This document shows positions 24,647 through 64,000 of a stretch of DNA of 64,000 nt, in pieces. The translations under genes were made by a program, and so were the position numbers. The first letter of the stretch is position 1. Each line of letters opens with the position of its first letter. The notes beneath the pieces are model-generated. The model worked only from the letters and a program-made list of their open reading frames with translations, ran no database searches and was not told the DNA's origin. The stretch comes from Tubiluchus corallicola (taxonomy: Eukaryota; Priapulida; Priapulimorpha; Priapulimorphida; Tubiluchidae), in contig JAQGDQ010000760.1 in the NCBI GenBank assembly GCA_030141605.1, positions 36,838-100,837 of the forward strand, read 5' to 3'.

Positions 24647-26161
24647 CTAAAACCGCCTTCGCATTACAATATGATACGGTTTTGCTTCTATCACAAGAGG
24701 TTGTTGTTTGGGCTCAAGGTCAGCGTGTTCGTCCTGTGGTAGGGATAGATTATATCTCTGCAGAAAACAAGCAAAGACAACGAAGATATTCACCTTGGCA
24801 ATACTTTCACCCAGGCACACCCGCCGCCCTGCAGAGAATGGCATGAAACTTGGAATTTTTGTCTTAATTTTACCCTCCTCATTTAAGAACCGCTCTGGTT
24901 TAAATACTTCCGGTTCTTCCCAATTGTTCGGATCGAAATGCAGACTGTATGTATTTACCATTACCATGGTATCTTTTGGAATCGCATAACCACCAACTGA
25001 TGTATCCACCGTCGTAGTGTGTGGAGGAATCATTGCTACCAATGGTTTAATTCGCATAACTTCGTGAATTACTGCATCACAGTACGATAAGCGTAGTTTG
25101 TCTTTATCATAGTCGGGTAGTCTTTCTTGGCCAATAACTTTGTCTAGTTCATCTTGCACTTTTTCCTGAACCTCTGGATAAGCAGCCATTAATAAAAATG
25201 CCCACAGCAAAGTCAATGACGTTGTGTCTGTTCCAGCAAAAAATACATCTGTGCAGATTTGGGTAAGATGTGTGTCAGTCAATTCTTCCACTTCTTCCTT
25301 TGAGGCTTCCTCTCTGGCTAAAAGCAAATCATCACAAATGTCCCTGGGGTTATCCTTGTTAAAGGTTTTCACATGTTCATGAAATTTGGCATAACCATAT
25401 TCAAGAAAGTATTTCGTTAAGTCTAAAAATTCCTTTTGCGCGGCTGTCCGAGGGAAGTACCGCAGAAATGGTATGTAATCTGGGGCAAAACCAGCAGCAA
25501 CAAGTGTGTTTATTCTGTCTGTTGAATACCGCAGTTTTTTGAACTGTGTATCGGAAAAGTCAAAACATTTACCGTAGGTCATATTATGAATAATATTGTA
25601 CATGGTATTATATATATATTCTCTTGGGTTAAACTTTTTTTCTTCGAGACTGTCTATGATAGTTGCAATGTTATTGAAACTACTGTGAATTCTTTGAACC
25701 AGTACATCTCTAGAAGCAAAGTGTCTAAACGCGCTATAGCCGAGCTTCCTTTGAACCTGCCAGGTTTTGGTAAAAGTGGAACCTAAGATATTCTTGTAAC
25801 CGTCTGTAAATTGCTCAACCGTCCACGCTTCTGGTCGCCCAGCGAAATCGTTTTGCTTCTTAACAAAAGCTTCTAACGCTTCTTCCACACGATTAATGAT
25901 GATTGTCGTCCGATTTCCAAAATCCAGTGAAATAACAGGTCCATGCTGTTCTGCCAACTGTCGACAATACTTGTAAAGAGGAGTTTTGAAAGAATGAAAG
26001 TAGACCTGTGGAATGTTGCCCACCAAAGGGAAGCTGAACAATCCAGGTGCGAGCTTTTTCTTTTGTCTTTGGTAATAAAAGAAACACAGTGTTACGAGCA
26101 GAGCCAACCACACTCTAGTATCGCCAAAAATAAAACTAGTTGCAGAACTTATTGCTGACAT
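24647..26161 (-). CDS. Cytochrome P450, CYP2 clan (CYP1/CYP17-like), intronless; copy A
   Basis: An ER-bound heme monooxygenase that oxidises small lipophilic substrates with electrons from P450 reductase. A single uninterrupted frame of 504 residues, full family length. It has an N-terminal anchor (WLALLVTLCFFYY), a basic patch and proline hinge (KKKLAPGLFSFPLVGNIP), the C-helix W..QRK..., the I-helix oxygen motif AGTDTT near residue 309, the K-helix HEVMR (ExxR), the PERF segment FKPERF, and the heme loop FMPFSAGRRVCLGE with the cysteine ligand near residue 449. All catalytic motifs are intact. It is roughly 70-75 percent identical to copy B at 56,787-58,301, with the same length and no introns. 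The ATG directly follows TTTCAG, so a 5' untranslated intron ending there is possible. Substrate is unknown; CYP17 or CYP1 resemblance is only by feel. Confidence 0.92.
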   Translation of the reverse strand: MSAISSATSFIFGDTRVWLALLVTLCFFYYQRQKKKLAPGLFSFPLVGNIPQVYFHSFKTPLYKYCRQLAEQHGPVISLDFGNRTTIIINRVEEALEAFVKKQNDFAGRPEAWTVEQFTDGYKNILGSTFTKTWQVQRKLGYSAFRHFASRDVLVQRIHSSFNNIATIIDSLEEKKFNPREYIYNTMYNIIHNMTYGKCFDFSDTQFKKLRYSTDRINTLVAAGFAPDYIPFLRYFPRTAAQKEFLDLTKYFLEYGYAKFHEHVKTFNKDNPRDICDDLLLAREEASKEEVEELTDTHLTQICTDVFFAGTDTTSLTLLWAFLLMAAYPEVQEKVQDELDKVIGQERLPDYDKDKLRLSYCDAVIHEVMRIKPLVAMIPPHTTTVDTSVGGYAIPKDTMVMVNTYSLHFDPNNWEEPEVFKPERFLNEEGKIKTKIPSFMPFSAGRRVCLGESIAKVNIFVVFACFLQRYNLSLPQDEHADLEPKQQPLVIEAKPYHIVMRRRF

Positions 26162-56786: not shown

Positions 56787-58301
56787 ATGTCGGCGATAAA
56801 TTCCGTGGCCAGTTTAGCCTTTACTGACGTCAGGGTGTGTTTCGTGTTAATAGCAACTATCTGCTTTGTTTACTACCAAAGACAAAGGAAGAAGCTTGCG
56901 CCTGGATTGTTCAGTTTCCCACTGGTTGGTAATTTACCACAAATCTACTATCGTACATTCAAAACTCCGGTGTACAAATATTGCCAGGAACTTTCTAAAC
57001 AACTCGGTCCCGTTATTTCGTTAGATTTCGGTGTTCAAACTACAGTGGTAATCAACCGGGTAGATGAAGCTTTAGAAGCTTTTGTTAAAAAACAAAATGA
57101 GTTTGCTGGACGGCCAAAGTCGTGGACGATAGAGAAATTTTCAGAAGGCTATAAAGACATCTTTGCTGGCATGTTTACGTCGACTTGGCGCGTTCAAAGG
57201 AAACTTGGTCATAGTGCGTTTAGACACTTTGCTTCTAGAGATGTACTAATTCAAAGAATTCACAGTAGCTTTAATAACATTGCAGCTGTCATAGATAATC
57301 TTGAAGAAAAGAAGTTTAATCCAAGAGAATACATATACAACACCATGTACAACATTATCCACGATATGACATTTGGAAAATGCTTTGATTTTTCTGATGA
57401 ACAATTTAAAAAACTCCGAAAGACAACAGACCGTTTGAATGAAATTGTAGTATCCGGATTTACTCCAGATTATATACCCTTTTTCAGATACTTACCTATG
57501 ACATCAGCACAAAAAGAATTTCTAGATCTAATGAAGTACATACTTGAATATGTATATGGTCAGTATCATGAGCATGTAAAAATGATTAACAAAGATGACC
57601 CTAGAGATATTTGTGATGACTTAATTTTAGCCAGAGAAGGGGCATCCAAAGAAGAAGTAGCAGAACTGACTGACACACATATTGCCCAAACCTGTTTGGA
57701 TGTGTTTAGCGCTGGAACTGATACCACTTCGATGACCTTACTATGGGCATTTCTTTACATGGCTGCTTATCCAGATGTACAGCAAAAAGTGCAAGAAGAA
57801 CTGGACGATGTTGTAGGTCATAGCAGACTTCCTAACTACGATAAAGACAAACCACGTCTGTCTTACTGCGACGCTGTAATGCACGAAGTTATGCGAATTA
57901 AACCTTTAGTGCCACTCATTTTTCCACACGTAACCACGGCTGACACCTCTGTGGGAGGTTTTGCTCTTCCCAAAGATACCTTGGTAATGGTGAATTTATA
58001 CAGCCTACATCACGATCCAGCAAACTGGGACGAACCAGAGAAATTCAAACCGGAGAGGTTCTTGGATGATGACGGGAAAATCAGTGCGAAAATTCCAAGT
58101 TTCATGCCATTCTCTGCAGGGCGTCGCGTTTGCCTAGGTGAAAGCATTGCCAAGATAAACCTTTTTGTTGTTTTTGCTTGTTTCCTACAGAGGTATAGTT
58201 TGTCGATTCCACCTGGCGAAATGGCAAATTTTGAGGAGAAACAACAACCTCTGTTAATAGAAACTAGACCCTATAATATCATGATGAAGAAACGCTTGTA
58301 A
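56787..58301 (+). CDS. Cytochrome P450, CYP2 clan (CYP1/CYP17-like), intronless; copy B
   Basis: Full-length 504-residue heme monooxygenase in one open frame. Membrane anchor at about 15-32, then KKLAPGLFSFPLVGNLP. The I-helix A309-G-T-D-T-T314 activates oxygen, HEVMR (E367, R370) and PERF (422-425) hold the heme pocket fold, and the heme loop FMPFSAGRRVCLGE places the ligand cysteine at 449. It is a close paralog of copy A (about 70-75 percent identical by eye, no length change), but on the opposite strand and 30 kb away, with the SLC17 pair between them. Differences cluster in the N-terminal anchor and in putative substrate-recognition stretches such as 124-140. The upstream sequence lacks the TTTCAG seen just before the ATG of copy A. 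Substrate unknown. Confidence 0.93.
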   Translation: MSAINSVASLAFTDVRVCFVLIATICFVYYQRQRKKLAPGLFSFPLVGNLPQIYYRTFKTPVYKYCQELSKQLGPVISLDFGVQTTVVINRVDEALEAFVKKQNEFAGRPKSWTIEKFSEGYKDIFAGMFTSTWRVQRKLGHSAFRHFASRDVLIQRIHSSFNNIAAVIDNLEEKKFNPREYIYNTMYNIIHDMTFGKCFDFSDEQFKKLRKTTDRLNEIVVSGFTPDYIPFFRYLPMTSAQKEFLDLMKYILEYVYGQYHEHVKMINKDDPRDICDDLILAREGASKEEVAELTDTHIAQTCLDVFSAGTDTTSMTLLWAFLYMAAYPDVQQKVQEELDDVVGHSRLPNYDKDKPRLSYCDAVMHEVMRIKPLVPLIFPHVTTADTSVGGFALPKDTLVMVNLYSLHHDPANWDEPEKFKPERFLDDDGKISAKIPSFMPFSAGRRVCLGESIAKINLFVVFACFLQRYSLSIPPGEMANFEEKQQPLLIETRPYNIMMKKRL

Positions 58302-60292: not shown

Positions 60293-61200
60293 AATAATCT
60301 AGAAAAAGACATAACAAATATAAATGCAGCATTTAACTATTTTGGTTTAAAAATGAATGATGATAAGACAGAATTTATCGTAATATCACCCAAATCAAAT
60401 GACATTACTTCTTCTAATGCAACACTAAAAGTAGGTGACTGTTCCATAGAACAAGCAAAAACTGTAAAATTTTTAGGCATTACAGTCGACAATAAACTCA
60501 CTTGGGATGAACAGTTTCATCAAATAGACAACAAGATGGCATTAAGCACGACATTCTTACGCCAAACCATAGGCCATCTAACCAAGAAAACAAAAATTCT
60601 CATCTACAAAAGTCTAATATTACCACATTATCTATATGGTTGCACTTTACTTCAAAACGTTAAATATGAAAACTTTAGAAAACTAAATACAATGCAAAAC
60701 TACGCACTTAGATTAATTCATGGCTACTCTAACAAAACTGCTAAACAACATGCTGCTTTTGCAACAAGCTTAAGAACGTCTACAAAAATACCAATATTAG
60801 AAGCCTATCGAGATTACAAAACACTGATATTTCTTTATAAATATATAAATAAACTGAGCATTCCATTTATAAACAATCCCTTGGCATTTATTCCTGATAC
60901 CACTTTAAACACTAGAACATACAATTTAAAGCAAATTACAGAAAACAATAACTTTGGAAATAACTCTATATCAAAACAGGCCATACATTTATGGAACTTA
61001 CTACCCAGTGAAATAAAACAAATAGAATCTCTCCACCACTTTAAAAAGAAATTAAAAGAATATCAATATAACAGGTTTCAACTTCCACATTGTGCATCTG
61101 ATACTAATTACACAGACTCCACTTTCATCTACCCCCGCCCCTGACTCCATATAACGATTAAAAATGAATTTTTTAAAAAAAAATTATGTAATGTAATACG
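60293..61200 (+). mobile_element. 5'-truncated LINE with an open reverse-transcriptase tail
   Basis: The frame 60353-61144 encodes 263 residues from the part of the polymerase after the catalytic aspartates: MNDDKTEF, VKFLGITVDNKLTWDEQ (the conserved FLG and L-W box), KKTKILIYKSLILPHYLYGC, a helical segment, HLWNLLPSEIKQIES and FKKKLKEYQ. The frame extends upstream without a Met to about 60,293 (DITNINAAFNYFGLK). YADD and everything before it are missing, so the copy was truncated on insertion. Intactness over 263 codons suggests recent arrival, in contrast to the dead copy at 0.7-2.1 kb. The 3' untranslated part passes without a clear tail into the Polinton-like end at about 61,210. Confidence 0.85.
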
Positions 61201-61209
61201 TGAGTAGTA

Positions 61210-61740
61210 TAGATGTTACACCTCTGGCCGATTTCCCCCCTCCTTTGGCTGCCCGGGGGGGGTGGGGAAAAACACCCCTAAAAAGTGCGAAAATCCGCGA
61301 AAACCCCTAAAAAAGTGTGAAAACCCGTGTGAAAGTGCACACGTGACCGAAATCGACGAAAAAGCGCGAAAAACAAAGAAAAACGAAGAAAAGGCGTGTG
61401 AAACGAGGTAAAAATCGCCTCAAACGAAGAAAAAGGGAGAAGTGGAGTTCCCGCCGAGGACTAATTAGTGCTAATTGGCGCTAATTGGGGAGCCCCTGCC
61501 ACCCCTCCGCCGCTTGCAAACGTCCGTCCCGGGGTCGGGGACCCCCCCCCCCCCCTGCAACCCACCCCTCCGTCGCGTGGAATCGTCCACTGCAGGCAAT
61601 GAGGGAAATCTTTTTCCCGCCACTCGCGCAGTGCCGGCCCTTTTCCGCGACCACTTCTCTCTCTCTCGGGTGCCCTCCCTTTTCCGCGAGCACTTCTCTC
61701 GCAGGTTTAGATGTGTGTGCGTGTGGAGATTTATTTCAAA
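61210..61740. repeat. GC-rich terminal region of the Polinton-like element (candidate terminal repeat)
   Basis: Starts with G and C runs, then short repeated words such as GTGCGAAAATCCGCGAAAAC and AAAGTGTGAAAACCCGTG. It also holds a direct repeat of 24 bp with one mismatch (61638-61661 and 61677-61700, containing CCCTTTTCCGCGA). No protein fits; long frames on both strands are composition artefacts. Position next to the integrase-side genes suits a terminal inverted repeat, but its partner is outside the window. Confidence 0.5.
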
Positions 61741-61918
61741 CGCCAAAGTTCGATAAATGCATTTTCACAAATCTTTTTTATTGATGGATTACAAAAAAAT
61801 TTTTTATGCAAAATACATATGTGCTAAAACTAGATTATTATTATTATTATGGTGACATGATAGTTCTACATTTTACGTTTTTTCGCAAATTACACAAATT
61901 ATGCAAATTACAGTAAAA

Positions 61919-62521
61919 CTACACTAATGACGACGAGCGAGTACATGGATTGTCGTCGTCGATGTGATACAGACAAACGTTATTGTTGTTAAAAACGAAT
62001 TCGTTAAATTTGCGGAAAACGCGAGAGAAATCCTCGACCTTTGTCCCGCCCATCATTATTATGCTTCCGGTGTGAAAAATGTTCAGAGTAATTTGCTCGC
62101 ATTTGCAAGTTAGTTTGGGAAATAGTTCCACTTCGTAAAACACTTCTCTAAAAGAATGCGTCGAAGGACGAACGAGTTCTTCGTACAGTGCACCCAGCTT
62201 CAATCTGCAGCGAATTTTGGCTCTGGCGGTGATGGTGCGAATTGCGATCCCGTCGGCGGGCGTCAGTCCGAGACCTTTCGAGAGTTCTTCGATCGCATTG
62301 CGTAGTACTTTTTCCTCCGAAAAACCGTTGGCCACCACGGAGCCGGAGGCAAAAATCATCAGCGTCCCGCCCAGTCGCTTTAGCAGAAGCATTTGTGGTT
62401 TCCTTTCGTAGCGTCTTCCGCCCGTTCTCCGTCGGAGTTCGTTCAGATCGAAGCGCTGCGAGAACGAAGCCGTGGCGACGATGTTGACCGTTTGGACTGA
62501 CACGGTTCTGGCTCTCAACAT
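61919..62521 (-). CDS. TATA-binding-protein-like protein of the Polinton-like element
   Basis: 200 residues, about the length of the TBP core. TBP bends promoter DNA and recruits RNA polymerase. Two half-repeats are visible. Repeat one (about 9-88) starts QTVNIVATASF, has LMIFASGSVV and ends EEKVLRNAIEEL. Repeat two (about 92-176) has FYEVELFPKL and LNIFHTGSIIMMGGTKVE. ELFP, the IF-x-x-G strands and G-T/A-K-V are TBP landmarks. Of four phenylalanines that insert into the TATA minor groove, three seem kept (F57, F134, F149); the first is replaced. The two central asparagines are not kept, so DNA preference may differ. I chose Met at 62521 because the 128 upstream codons run antisense to other element genes and look non-coding. 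It is transcribed opposite to the other genes, and its first 50 bases overlap the start of the next gene. Element-borne origin is clear from position; binding activity is inferred. Confidence 0.75.
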   Translation of the reverse strand: MLRARTVSVQTVNIVATASFSQRFDLNELRRRTGGRRYERKPQMLLLKRLGGTLMIFASGSVVANGFSEEKVLRNAIEELSKGLGLTPADGIAIRTITARAKIRCRLKLGALYEELVRPSTHSFREVFYEVELFPKLTCKCEQITLNIFHTGSIIMMGGTKVEDFSRVFRKFNEFVFNNNNVCLYHIDDDNPCTRSSSLV

Positions 62522-62762
62522 ACTACGCGGTAATGTGAAGTTGAAAACCAAACAGATAAAGGTATTGAGGGGACATCGCAATGTGCTGAGAAAATTGGCA
62601 CGCGCCGGTTCCACGTTGAAGGCCAGAAGACGTGCGCTAGTGCAAAAAGGTGGTATATTTCCAATCATACCCCTCTTGGCGGGCATATTTGGCGCCACTT
62701 CGGCTGCTGCTAGCGTAGCCAGAACGGTGAAGACATTCCGCGATAAGAAGAAAAAGAAATAA
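62472..62762 (+). CDS. Small basic hydrophobic element protein (possible virion core or membrane-active protein)
   Basis: 96 residues. A lysine/arginine-rich half (KLKTKQIKVLRGHRNVLRKL then KARRRALVQKGG) is followed by a proline-, glycine- and alanine-rich hydrophobic stretch at about 61-83 (IFPIIPLLAGIFG) and a lysine tail. Small proteins of this make-up occur in Polintons and adintoviruses and recall minor virion core or membrane-lytic proteins of adenoviruses; that role is inference. Starts could be at 62472 or 62481, both inside the oppositely directed TBP-like gene, so the true start is uncertain. The stop codon is one base before the next ATG. Confidence 0.6.
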   Translation: MATMLTVWTDTVLALNILRGNVKLKTKQIKVLRGHRNVLRKLARAGSTLKARRRALVQKGGIFPIIPLLAGIFGATSAAASVARTVKTFRDKKKKK

Positions 62763-62763
62763 A

Positions 62764-63558
62764 ATGTATTCTCAGATGGTTTTACTACCGCTGGCAGAGT
62801 ATAACAGGTTAAAACATACGCGCCTCGTTCTAGACACGCCCGTCGAGCAGAAAACTGTAGAAATTCAACAGAAAATGGCGGAATTGGCAGCTCGAGGATT
62901 GCCACCCGATGTGGAAAATAAGATGAGAAGCGAATTGATGCAGGAGATCAAAGATTTGAAAAAGCCCTCCTCCACGGGCGAAGATGACGATGGAACCCGA
63001 CTGAAAGACACTCAAATAATCGAGGCATTACCCACCAAGTACAAGAGTAGGGGACAAAAAATGCTCTCCTTTTTGAAGGCCCATCGAACGCGTTGGGACG
63101 AAATGGGGCGTTTCGTGCACGAGGGACGCGCAATGAGTGGCACGCACCTGGTGGACTTGATAAATTTTGCCACAACTAGCGAGAAGATGACTCCCCCTCG
63201 CGGTTGGTCCGACTTTTATCGTCATCTCAAAGAAATAAGTGTGCCCATGACTCTATTGGGTAAAACGGCTAAGACAGAACTCGAGAAGGGTCAACAGCAA
63301 CAACAGCAGCGCGAAAGGTTGGGACTGACGACACCCCCATCCTCTCTAGCGCATCGACGCGTGGTGGCCGATGACGAAGCGAGGACAGCGACACCGACAC
63401 CACCACCACCAGCCCCTCTACCTTCTAATAAACGAACCACGCGAAAACGTGGACCTCAACAACAACAACAACAACAACAACAGCATCCTCGTCGTCGACG
63501 TCGACGACAATCCTCACCCATAGTTAGAGAATGGGCGAGACTGGAGACAGAAGATTAG
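62764..63558 (+). CDS. Conserved Polinton/Maverick protein of unknown function
   Basis: 264 residues. N-terminal helix-rich part, an acidic linker (TGEDDDG), then a compact domain at about 84-167 with IIEALPTKYKSRG, W-x-E-x-G-R-F-V-x-x-G, THLVDLINF and GW-x-x-F...L..I.VP..LLGK. I recognise this domain pattern (IIE.xP..., H-x-VDLxN, GW..F) from proteins next to integrases of animal Polintons; its function is not known to me. The C-terminal third is low-complexity: two glutamine runs, a proline patch and an RRRRRR block, suggesting nucleic-acid binding. It begins one base after the previous stop and overlaps the integrase start by 28 bp in another frame. Confidence 0.7.
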   Translation: MYSQMVLLPLAEYNRLKHTRLVLDTPVEQKTVEIQQKMAELAARGLPPDVENKMRSELMQEIKDLKKPSSTGEDDDGTRLKDTQIIEALPTKYKSRGQKMLSFLKAHRTRWDEMGRFVHEGRAMSGTHLVDLINFATTSEKMTPPRGWSDFYRHLKEISVPMTLLGKTAKTELEKGQQQQQQRERLGLTTPPSSLAHRRVVADDEARTATPTPPPPAPLPSNKRTTRKRGPQQQQQQQQQHPRRRRRRQSSPIVREWARLETED

Positions 63559-64000
63559 CCGAAATCTACTACGATTTGCGTCATCCTGCCGGTTATGCTA
63601 GCGCACGTGCATTGAAACGCGCCTCTGGCGACACGATGCGTCGCGTGCGCGAATGGTTGAGTGCGCAATCCGCCTACACCCTCCACAGGGGTGCCAGACG
63701 TAGTAGATATGACACTCGCCCGACTTTGACGCGCGGTATTGATTATCAATGGCAAGCCGATTTGGTAATTATGGCCGCGCTATCCAAATATAACGATGGC
63801 TACAAATACATGTTAACCGTGGTGGATTGTTTTAGTCGTTATGCCTGGGCGAGAGCTTTGAAGAGTAAAGGTGGACGCGAAACTGCCGAGGCTCTACGCT
63901 CCATATTCGAAGAGGAGGGGCGCGCGCCCCTCAAATTACACACGGACAAGGGTAAAGAATTTCAAAATAGACATGTGCAAAAATTGTTGAAAGACTATGG
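63531..64000 (+). CDS. Retroviral-type integrase of the Polinton-like element, N-terminal 156 codons, cut by the window end
   Basis: Catalyses insertion of the element into host DNA by strand transfer. ATG at 63531 lies inside the end of the preceding gene. N-terminal part (LAEIYYDLRHPAGYASARAL) followed by an arginine-rich link, then the RNase H-like core: WQADLV with the first catalytic aspartate (D77), LSKYNDGYKYMLTVVDCFSR, YAWARALKSK and LHTDKGKEF with the second aspartate (D139). The third residue, glutamate, lies beyond base 64,000. The KYNDGY..LTV.D.FS.YAW and TDKGKEF words are characteristic of Polinton integrases as opposed to Ty3 or BEL ones. The frame is open to the edge. Confidence 0.88.
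   Translation, partial: MGETGDRRLAEIYYDLRHPAGYASARALKRASGDTMRRVREWLSAQSAYTLHRGARRSRYDTRPTLTRGIDYQWQADLVIMAALSKYNDGYKYMLTVVDCFSRYAWARALKSKGGRETAEALRSIFEEEGRAPLKLHTDKGKEFQNRHVQKLLKDY

Follow-up and report, generated by a model that had tools for sequence, protein, structure and literature searches.

Whether a small mobile element of an animal genome can carry a promoter-recognition factor of its own is the question raised by a stretch of DNA from the priapulid Tubiluchus corallicola. This stretch, here called the window, comprises 64,000 nucleotides and forms the last part of contig C2003, whose length is 100,837 bases; towards its right side lies the left part of a Polinton (Maverick), whose outermost gene encodes a protein resembling the TATA-binding protein (TBP). 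It is commonly held that Polintons depend on the transcription machinery of the host. The preliminary description of this DNA, made from the letters alone, had proposed that the element carries its own TBP-like factor. The analysis supports this: a TBP-fold protein is carried by the Polinton and is kept in several element lineages, because profile match, predicted fold, neighbourhood and selection agree.

The features first read in the 200-residue translation, which are both TBP half-repeats, ELFP (residues 132-135), two IF-x-x-G strands (IFASG and IFHTG) and GTKV, are all present, and Pfam gives a TBP (PF00352) match in two stretches that stands well above background (E 4.2e-22, 78.2 bits versus a cut-off of 22.9). 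A chance open reading frame (ORF) is ruled out by this E-value and by the conservation described below. The predicted fold was checked for the saddle typical of the family and is a saddle of two alpha/beta repeats. Aligned with the TBP of the host, the element protein keeps N13, F57, E130, E132, L133, F134 and F149. TBPs have four intercalating phenylalanines; three are kept here (F57, F134 and F149) and nothing aligns to host F132 of the first stirrup, as had been noticed. On the other hand, the loss of both central asparagines, claimed at the same time, holds for one of them only, since N13 is kept and the second is T96. The two loop threonines are N65 and M157. The E-x-E-L loop of the second stirrup, which in TBPs contacts TFIIB, is present (E130, E132, L133). 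The alignment has 19 columns without variation across all eight rows, and Y129, E130, E132, F134 and P135 of this stirrup belong to them. As far as the alignment tells, the TFIIB-facing loop is intact and part of the DNA-binding face is changed.

The gene is the first one inside the left end of the element, in agreement with the preliminary description. This end was placed at 61203, where AGTAGTATAGATGTT follows flanking DNA that differs between copies; at or near this position other copies start to be homologous to the window. Left ends were found 13 times in the 18 loci searched, L003 and L023 being one place, and the flanks differ among the 12 places (only four flank letters are available for L020 and seven for L003). 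The opposite end of L024 bears inverted copies of the left repeat (3453-3234 and 3026-2723), and AGTAGT or AGTAGG stands at the element ends found, which gives the AGT-repeat terminal inverted repeats of Polintons and Mavericks. No 6-bp target site duplication was found at five short two-ended copies (L021, L024, L028, L009/L010 and L011/L012), though shared flanks suggest assembly joins through repeats.

The gene order is best seen in a fuller copy, L026 with its neighbour L027; the right ends of both L026 and the window copy lie outside the sequence seen. From the left, the fuller copy consists of the terminal repeat, the TBP-like gene (-), an overlapping 170-residue ORF (ORF170, -), a 311-residue ORF (-), a 387-residue ATPase-like ORF (+), a pX-like gene (+), a 264-residue ORF (+), an integrase that carries a chromodomain (+), three ORFs of 260, 130 and 434 residues (+), a protease-like ORF (+) and, truncated where the contig stops, a fragment of the polymerase (-). 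The uncut integrase of L027 is of the rve type (rve 1.8e-17 and Chromo 8.4e-6 in Pfam). The L027 polymerase fragment has no Pfam match by itself; a frame at L035, 99% identical to it, matches PF03175 at 2.5e-10 and is of type B, and the window stops before this gene. The protease-like ORF matches Peptidase_C5 below the cut-off (E 0.0067, 16.6 bits against 21.3), the 387-residue ORF has weak AAA/FtsK matches under the Pfam cut-off and no PDB match, and for a capsid protein the sequence search in Pfam returned no match with the 434- and 260-residue ORFs.

The window copy itself is defective. Window positions 61721-62504 match L026 5463-6259 and positions 62511-63112 match L026 9399-10000, so that about 3.1 kb is absent, including ORF170, the 311-residue ORF, the ATPase-like ORF and the beginning of pX. 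This deletion joins the TBP gene to the antisense of the next gene and supplies the window's TBP frame with its ATG and initial five residues; the genome holds 39 further matches of nearly full length, and all of these begin at residue 6.

Within its own genome the protein has 69 matches, 40 of which (the window's included) cover at least 193 of the 200 residues at 95-100% identity, 39 of the 40 without an internal stop; contigs share coordinates and flanks, so these counts are inflated and matches were not taken as insertions. Seven older copies (L017 and L029-L034), whose best-matching parts have 40-61% identity, were examined over 5-10 kb each; L018, which adjoins L017, gave no match. Directly before TBP stands ORF170 in five of the seven (L017, L030, L031, L033 and L034), while ATPase was seen in four of the seven, pX in three and the integrase in one, and with stretches so short the missing neighbours mean little. 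Ratios of non-synonymous to synonymous substitution (dN/dS) were obtained as point estimates by the Nei-Gojobori method, L026 against each older copy, and are raised by decay of the older copies after insertion: for TBP they are 0.40 (L017), 0.34 (L029), 0.33 (L030), 0.37 (L031), 0.43 (L032), 0.31 (L033) and 0.23 (L034), and for its first 40 codons alone 0.26-0.62 (five loci). The other genes gave 0.26-0.42 (ORF170, five loci), 0.30-0.38 (pX, three loci), 0.40 (311-residue ORF, one locus), 0.13-0.34 (ATPase, four loci) and 0.12 (integrase, one locus). In 13 distinct young TBP sequences, a set without L017 and without rows that reach a stop in under 151 codons, 15 synonymous variants stand beside 19 amino-acid variants; as non-synonymous sites are about three times as numerous, silent change is in mild excess.

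The gene is thus present in many other copies of the element, though it was not found near every related integrase. Integrase matches of at least 50% identity have a TBP match within 5 kb on C1626, C2003, C684, C1704 and C1757; on C2064 and C485 the TBP matches lie more than 20 kb away, and the genome-wide TBP match list has none on C1027, C1026, C1641 and C2123. Relatives were also found in protein databases, one among 247 candidates at E <= 0.001, two among 1046 at E <= 10 and seven among 2692 at E <= 1. These relatives, P0002-P0008, are known as proteins alone, without genomic context: five are lgn-tagged (contigs of 0.9-16 kb), one is from ENA (327-kb contig) and one from JGI (5.6-kb contig). 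Scans of viral contigs with TBP, TBP alignments, a TBP DNA pattern and two integrase queries found no relative.

What the protein does can be proposed from these data. The left accessory region of the Polinton would encode a virus-type TBP that binds and bends DNA at the element's core promoters, prefers other sequences than before, and recruits host TFIIB and thereby host RNA polymerase II. Element genes would then be transcribed from the element's own core-promoter complex, bypassing host TFIID/TBP. The gene, its position, its conservation, its fold as predicted and its remoteness from host TBP are shown by the data; from there we infer DNA binding, the altered preference, TFIIB recruitment and the role and timing in transcription. 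It is plausible that the factor directs polymerase to the element's own promoters. Host RNA polymerase II is the likely partner, since the Pfam scan of the L026/L027 ORFs, several of which match nothing, found no RNA polymerase subunit or TFIIB; the cytoplasmic phase once envisaged for the element is for the same reason unsupported. As a whole, the explanation by an element-coded core-promoter factor using host TFIIB and polymerase II stands at slightly better than an even chance. A stricter form, in which an orthogonal core-promoter system borrows only TFIIB and RNA polymerase II, its own TBP selecting the element promoters and being an old viral gene with relatives elsewhere and not a recent host capture, is advanced tentatively, and we would rather expect it not to hold in full.

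Several observations weigh against this explanation. The dN/dS of TBP exceeds that of ATPase in all four loci where both are measurable, dS is high and near saturation in some older loci, and the older copies are decayed; open frames among nearly identical copies, for their part, support use weakly. At C1027:656036-660174 there is an integrase 80-81% identical, with polymerase matches about 3 kb off and no TBP match on the contig, and this element may have lost the TBP gene or never had it. No common promoter motif was seen by eye in the starts of the element genes. Finally, 23 of the 24 young-family rows, which exclude the window copy and older L017 and in part represent one place in two loci, have no ATG in the TBP frame around the conserved start; L015 has one.

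The same residues could be read as those of a decoy or competitor, which would keep the TFIIB loop, bind promoters poorly and titrate TFIIB or TBP partners, damping host transcription while the element is active. Retention of the E-x-E-L-F loop together with loss of the first-stirrup phenylalanine, one asparagine and both loop threonines would fit such a protein; three intercalating phenylalanines out of four and a complete two-repeat saddle in the prediction speak against it, and we regard the decoy as unlikely. TBPs bend DNA. The gene adjoins the terminal repeat, and a DNA-bending protein serving replication, integration or packaging there, and not transcription, can also be imagined. It is improbable, however, because the TFIIB-facing glutamates would be needless for pure architecture, and Y129, E130, E132, F134 and P135 do not vary in the alignment.

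The missing ATG leads to the gene upstream. ORF170 (L026:6198-6710, -) has no Pfam match up to E 0.1, and its look, which we take to be exonuclease-like, is supported by no search. In L026, as in the five older copies named above, it directly precedes TBP with an overlap in the -1 frame; in L026 the open TBP frame extends through ORF170 over 342 codons and lacks a methionine ahead of the residue aligned to 44. Five older junctions were read, and the start is an ATG within an ATGA stop/start overlap in L017 and L030, ACG in L031 and L034, and TCG in L033. Non-AUG initiation, re-initiation and -1 frameshifting are possible ways of starting TBP. Letters resembling TTCTAAC or TACTAAT precede an AG at this junction; splicing was set aside, as young and older copies do not have the same reading phase after the AG, and no introns are reported for intact vertebrate Mavericks in the excerpts of PMC8097293.

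If frameshifting were the rule, the functional product could be an ORF170-TBP fusion, whose TBP part would bring the ORF170 domain to DNA or transcription complexes. The -1 overlap, the long open frame and the start without ATG in nearly all young rows are in keeping with it. Nevertheless, two of the five older junctions have the stop/start overlap, inspection of the junction stretch by eye revealed no slippery site, and P0003-P0008 are listed as free-standing proteins with no more than about 20 residues ahead of the first strand, so that a fusion as the functional product has little probability. The weakest alternative, a copy of the host's TBP gene that was captured recently and no longer serves any use, finds a basis in the host TBP being a separate, uninterrupted 273-residue gene on C1461, of which a processed copy would have this appearance, and is rejected as highly improbable in view of 26% identity to that protein, a separate tree branch, dN/dS below 1 in all seven older copies and relatives in other data sets.

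The tree, of 14 rows, is midpoint-rooted, with long branches between groups and viral TBPs not included; it joins the element rows (window, P0002 and L017) with support of 100/99, P0003-P0008 with 99/97 and cellular TBPs with 96/95. Apart from the host TBP, TBP-profile matches occur in three separate pieces at C315:92220-99862, which may be exons of a host TBP-related factor.

The features of the element in the window are collected in Table 1, where pX and PY are labels that we presume to apply. Some short copies have two outward-pointing TBP genes (e.g. C457, C2200 and C14); matches on C457, C628 and C2254 have identical coordinates, and C457, C2185 and C2 have one common flank. They may have arisen in the assembly, by joining through the repeat, or be genuine short elements with an inverted duplication. 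A first impression that they were defective genomes was dropped on account of the identical coordinates, the common flank and the target duplication not found. Polymerase C-terminal matches of equal score and 99% identity, with an open frame of 385 residues, lie on C88, C1972, C1994, C2034, C2113 and C2284, perhaps as a right-end short derivative or as assembly duplicates. Just outside the element, a 263-residue ORF (60353-61144, +), presumably resembling the end of a non-LTR reverse transcriptase, has one below-cut-off Pfam match, to another family. Further away there are two uninterrupted 504-codon P450-like ORFs (24647-26161, -, and 56787-58301, +), 74% identical to each other.

Table 1. 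Features of the Polinton in the window (window coordinates)
Feature	Position	Strand	Remarks
Left terminal inverted repeat of Polinton	61203..61689		Starts AGTAGTATAGATGTTACACC; inner limit approximate
TBP-like gene, 200 residues	61919..62521	-	Conserved gene from residue ~6; first five residues are deletion junction
Internal deletion junction, ~3.1 kb	62505..62510		Alignment to L026
pX-like small basic-protein gene, remainder	62511..62762	+	N-terminus lost; 137 residues in L026; ORF list
264-residue ORF adjoining integrase, PY-like	62764..63558	+	No Pfam family up to E 1
Integrase gene	63531..64000	+	rve 3.9e-15; truncated by contig end

A conserved and selected TBP in this place would mean, if true, that small mobile elements, and not just giant viruses, can carry basal promoter recognition. 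A very divergent TBP of its own suggests that the element may steer the reading of its genes instead of relying only on the host factor. It would also offer a compact system for studying the recognition of DNA and TFIIB by such a protein, and is relevant to the exchange of transcription genes between Polintons and large DNA viruses.

With cellular TBP (PF00352) the element protein shares the two repeats, the predicted saddle, the E-x-E-L-F-P stirrup and the IFxxG strands, at 19-26% identity to eukaryotic and archaeal TBPs in the 44 best structure alignments. It differs in having no N-terminal domain, in an ELFP-IFxxG spacing two residues shorter than in host TBP and in the changed first-stirrup phenylalanine, second asparagine and both loop threonines. 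Vertebrate Mavericks, as described in the excerpts of PMC8097293, share with the element the integrase, the polymerase, an ATPase and a protease that are putative here, AGT-repeat ends (AGT repeated twice being the commonest) and accessory genes beside core modules; the terms TATA and transcription factor are absent from that paper, and here a TBP lies in the accessory region. Among the matches listed in the Polinton, Maverick, adintovirus and virophage literature (few subscription papers, no bioRxiv) there is no report of a TBP in an animal Polinton, nor is there one in the excerpts of PMC11464507, PMC12085832, PMC11071296, PMC7786948, PMC4602308 and PMC11788076; TATA terms are absent from PMC11071308, PMC4028283 and PMC10120064, and a literature search for a shrimp-virus TBP gave no match.

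Virus-encoded proteins with the TBP fold, some of similar length, are likewise found in giant viruses (Heterosigma akashiwo virus 01, EsV-1-53 and Mimiviridae sp. ChoanoV1 in BFVD). Identity to the element protein is 6-22% for the 39 matches of E <= 0.001 in that database, which also take in iridovirus, ascovirus and herpesvirus proteins, about 13 rows being unnamed. Giant viruses are far larger than Polintons. Poxvirus VITF-3, an atypical TBP/TFIIB pair according to the excerpts of PMC12917281, is also a virus-encoded TBP-like promoter factor; it partners a viral RNA polymerase, whereas the scanned Polinton ORFs yielded neither such a polymerase nor TFIIB. A further parallel, in description and not in sequence, is with the mirusviruses, which have HK97-type capsid proteins and genomes to more than 400 kb (excerpts of PMC10675990 and PMC10132985). 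TBP is given for 59% of mirusvirus genomes in the excerpts of PMC10132985, while those of PMC10675990 describe elements, putatively derived from mirusviruses, that contain TBP genes; in them, as here, the carrier of the TBP is a DNA virus that integrates or is endogenous, the element here being of the Polinton type.
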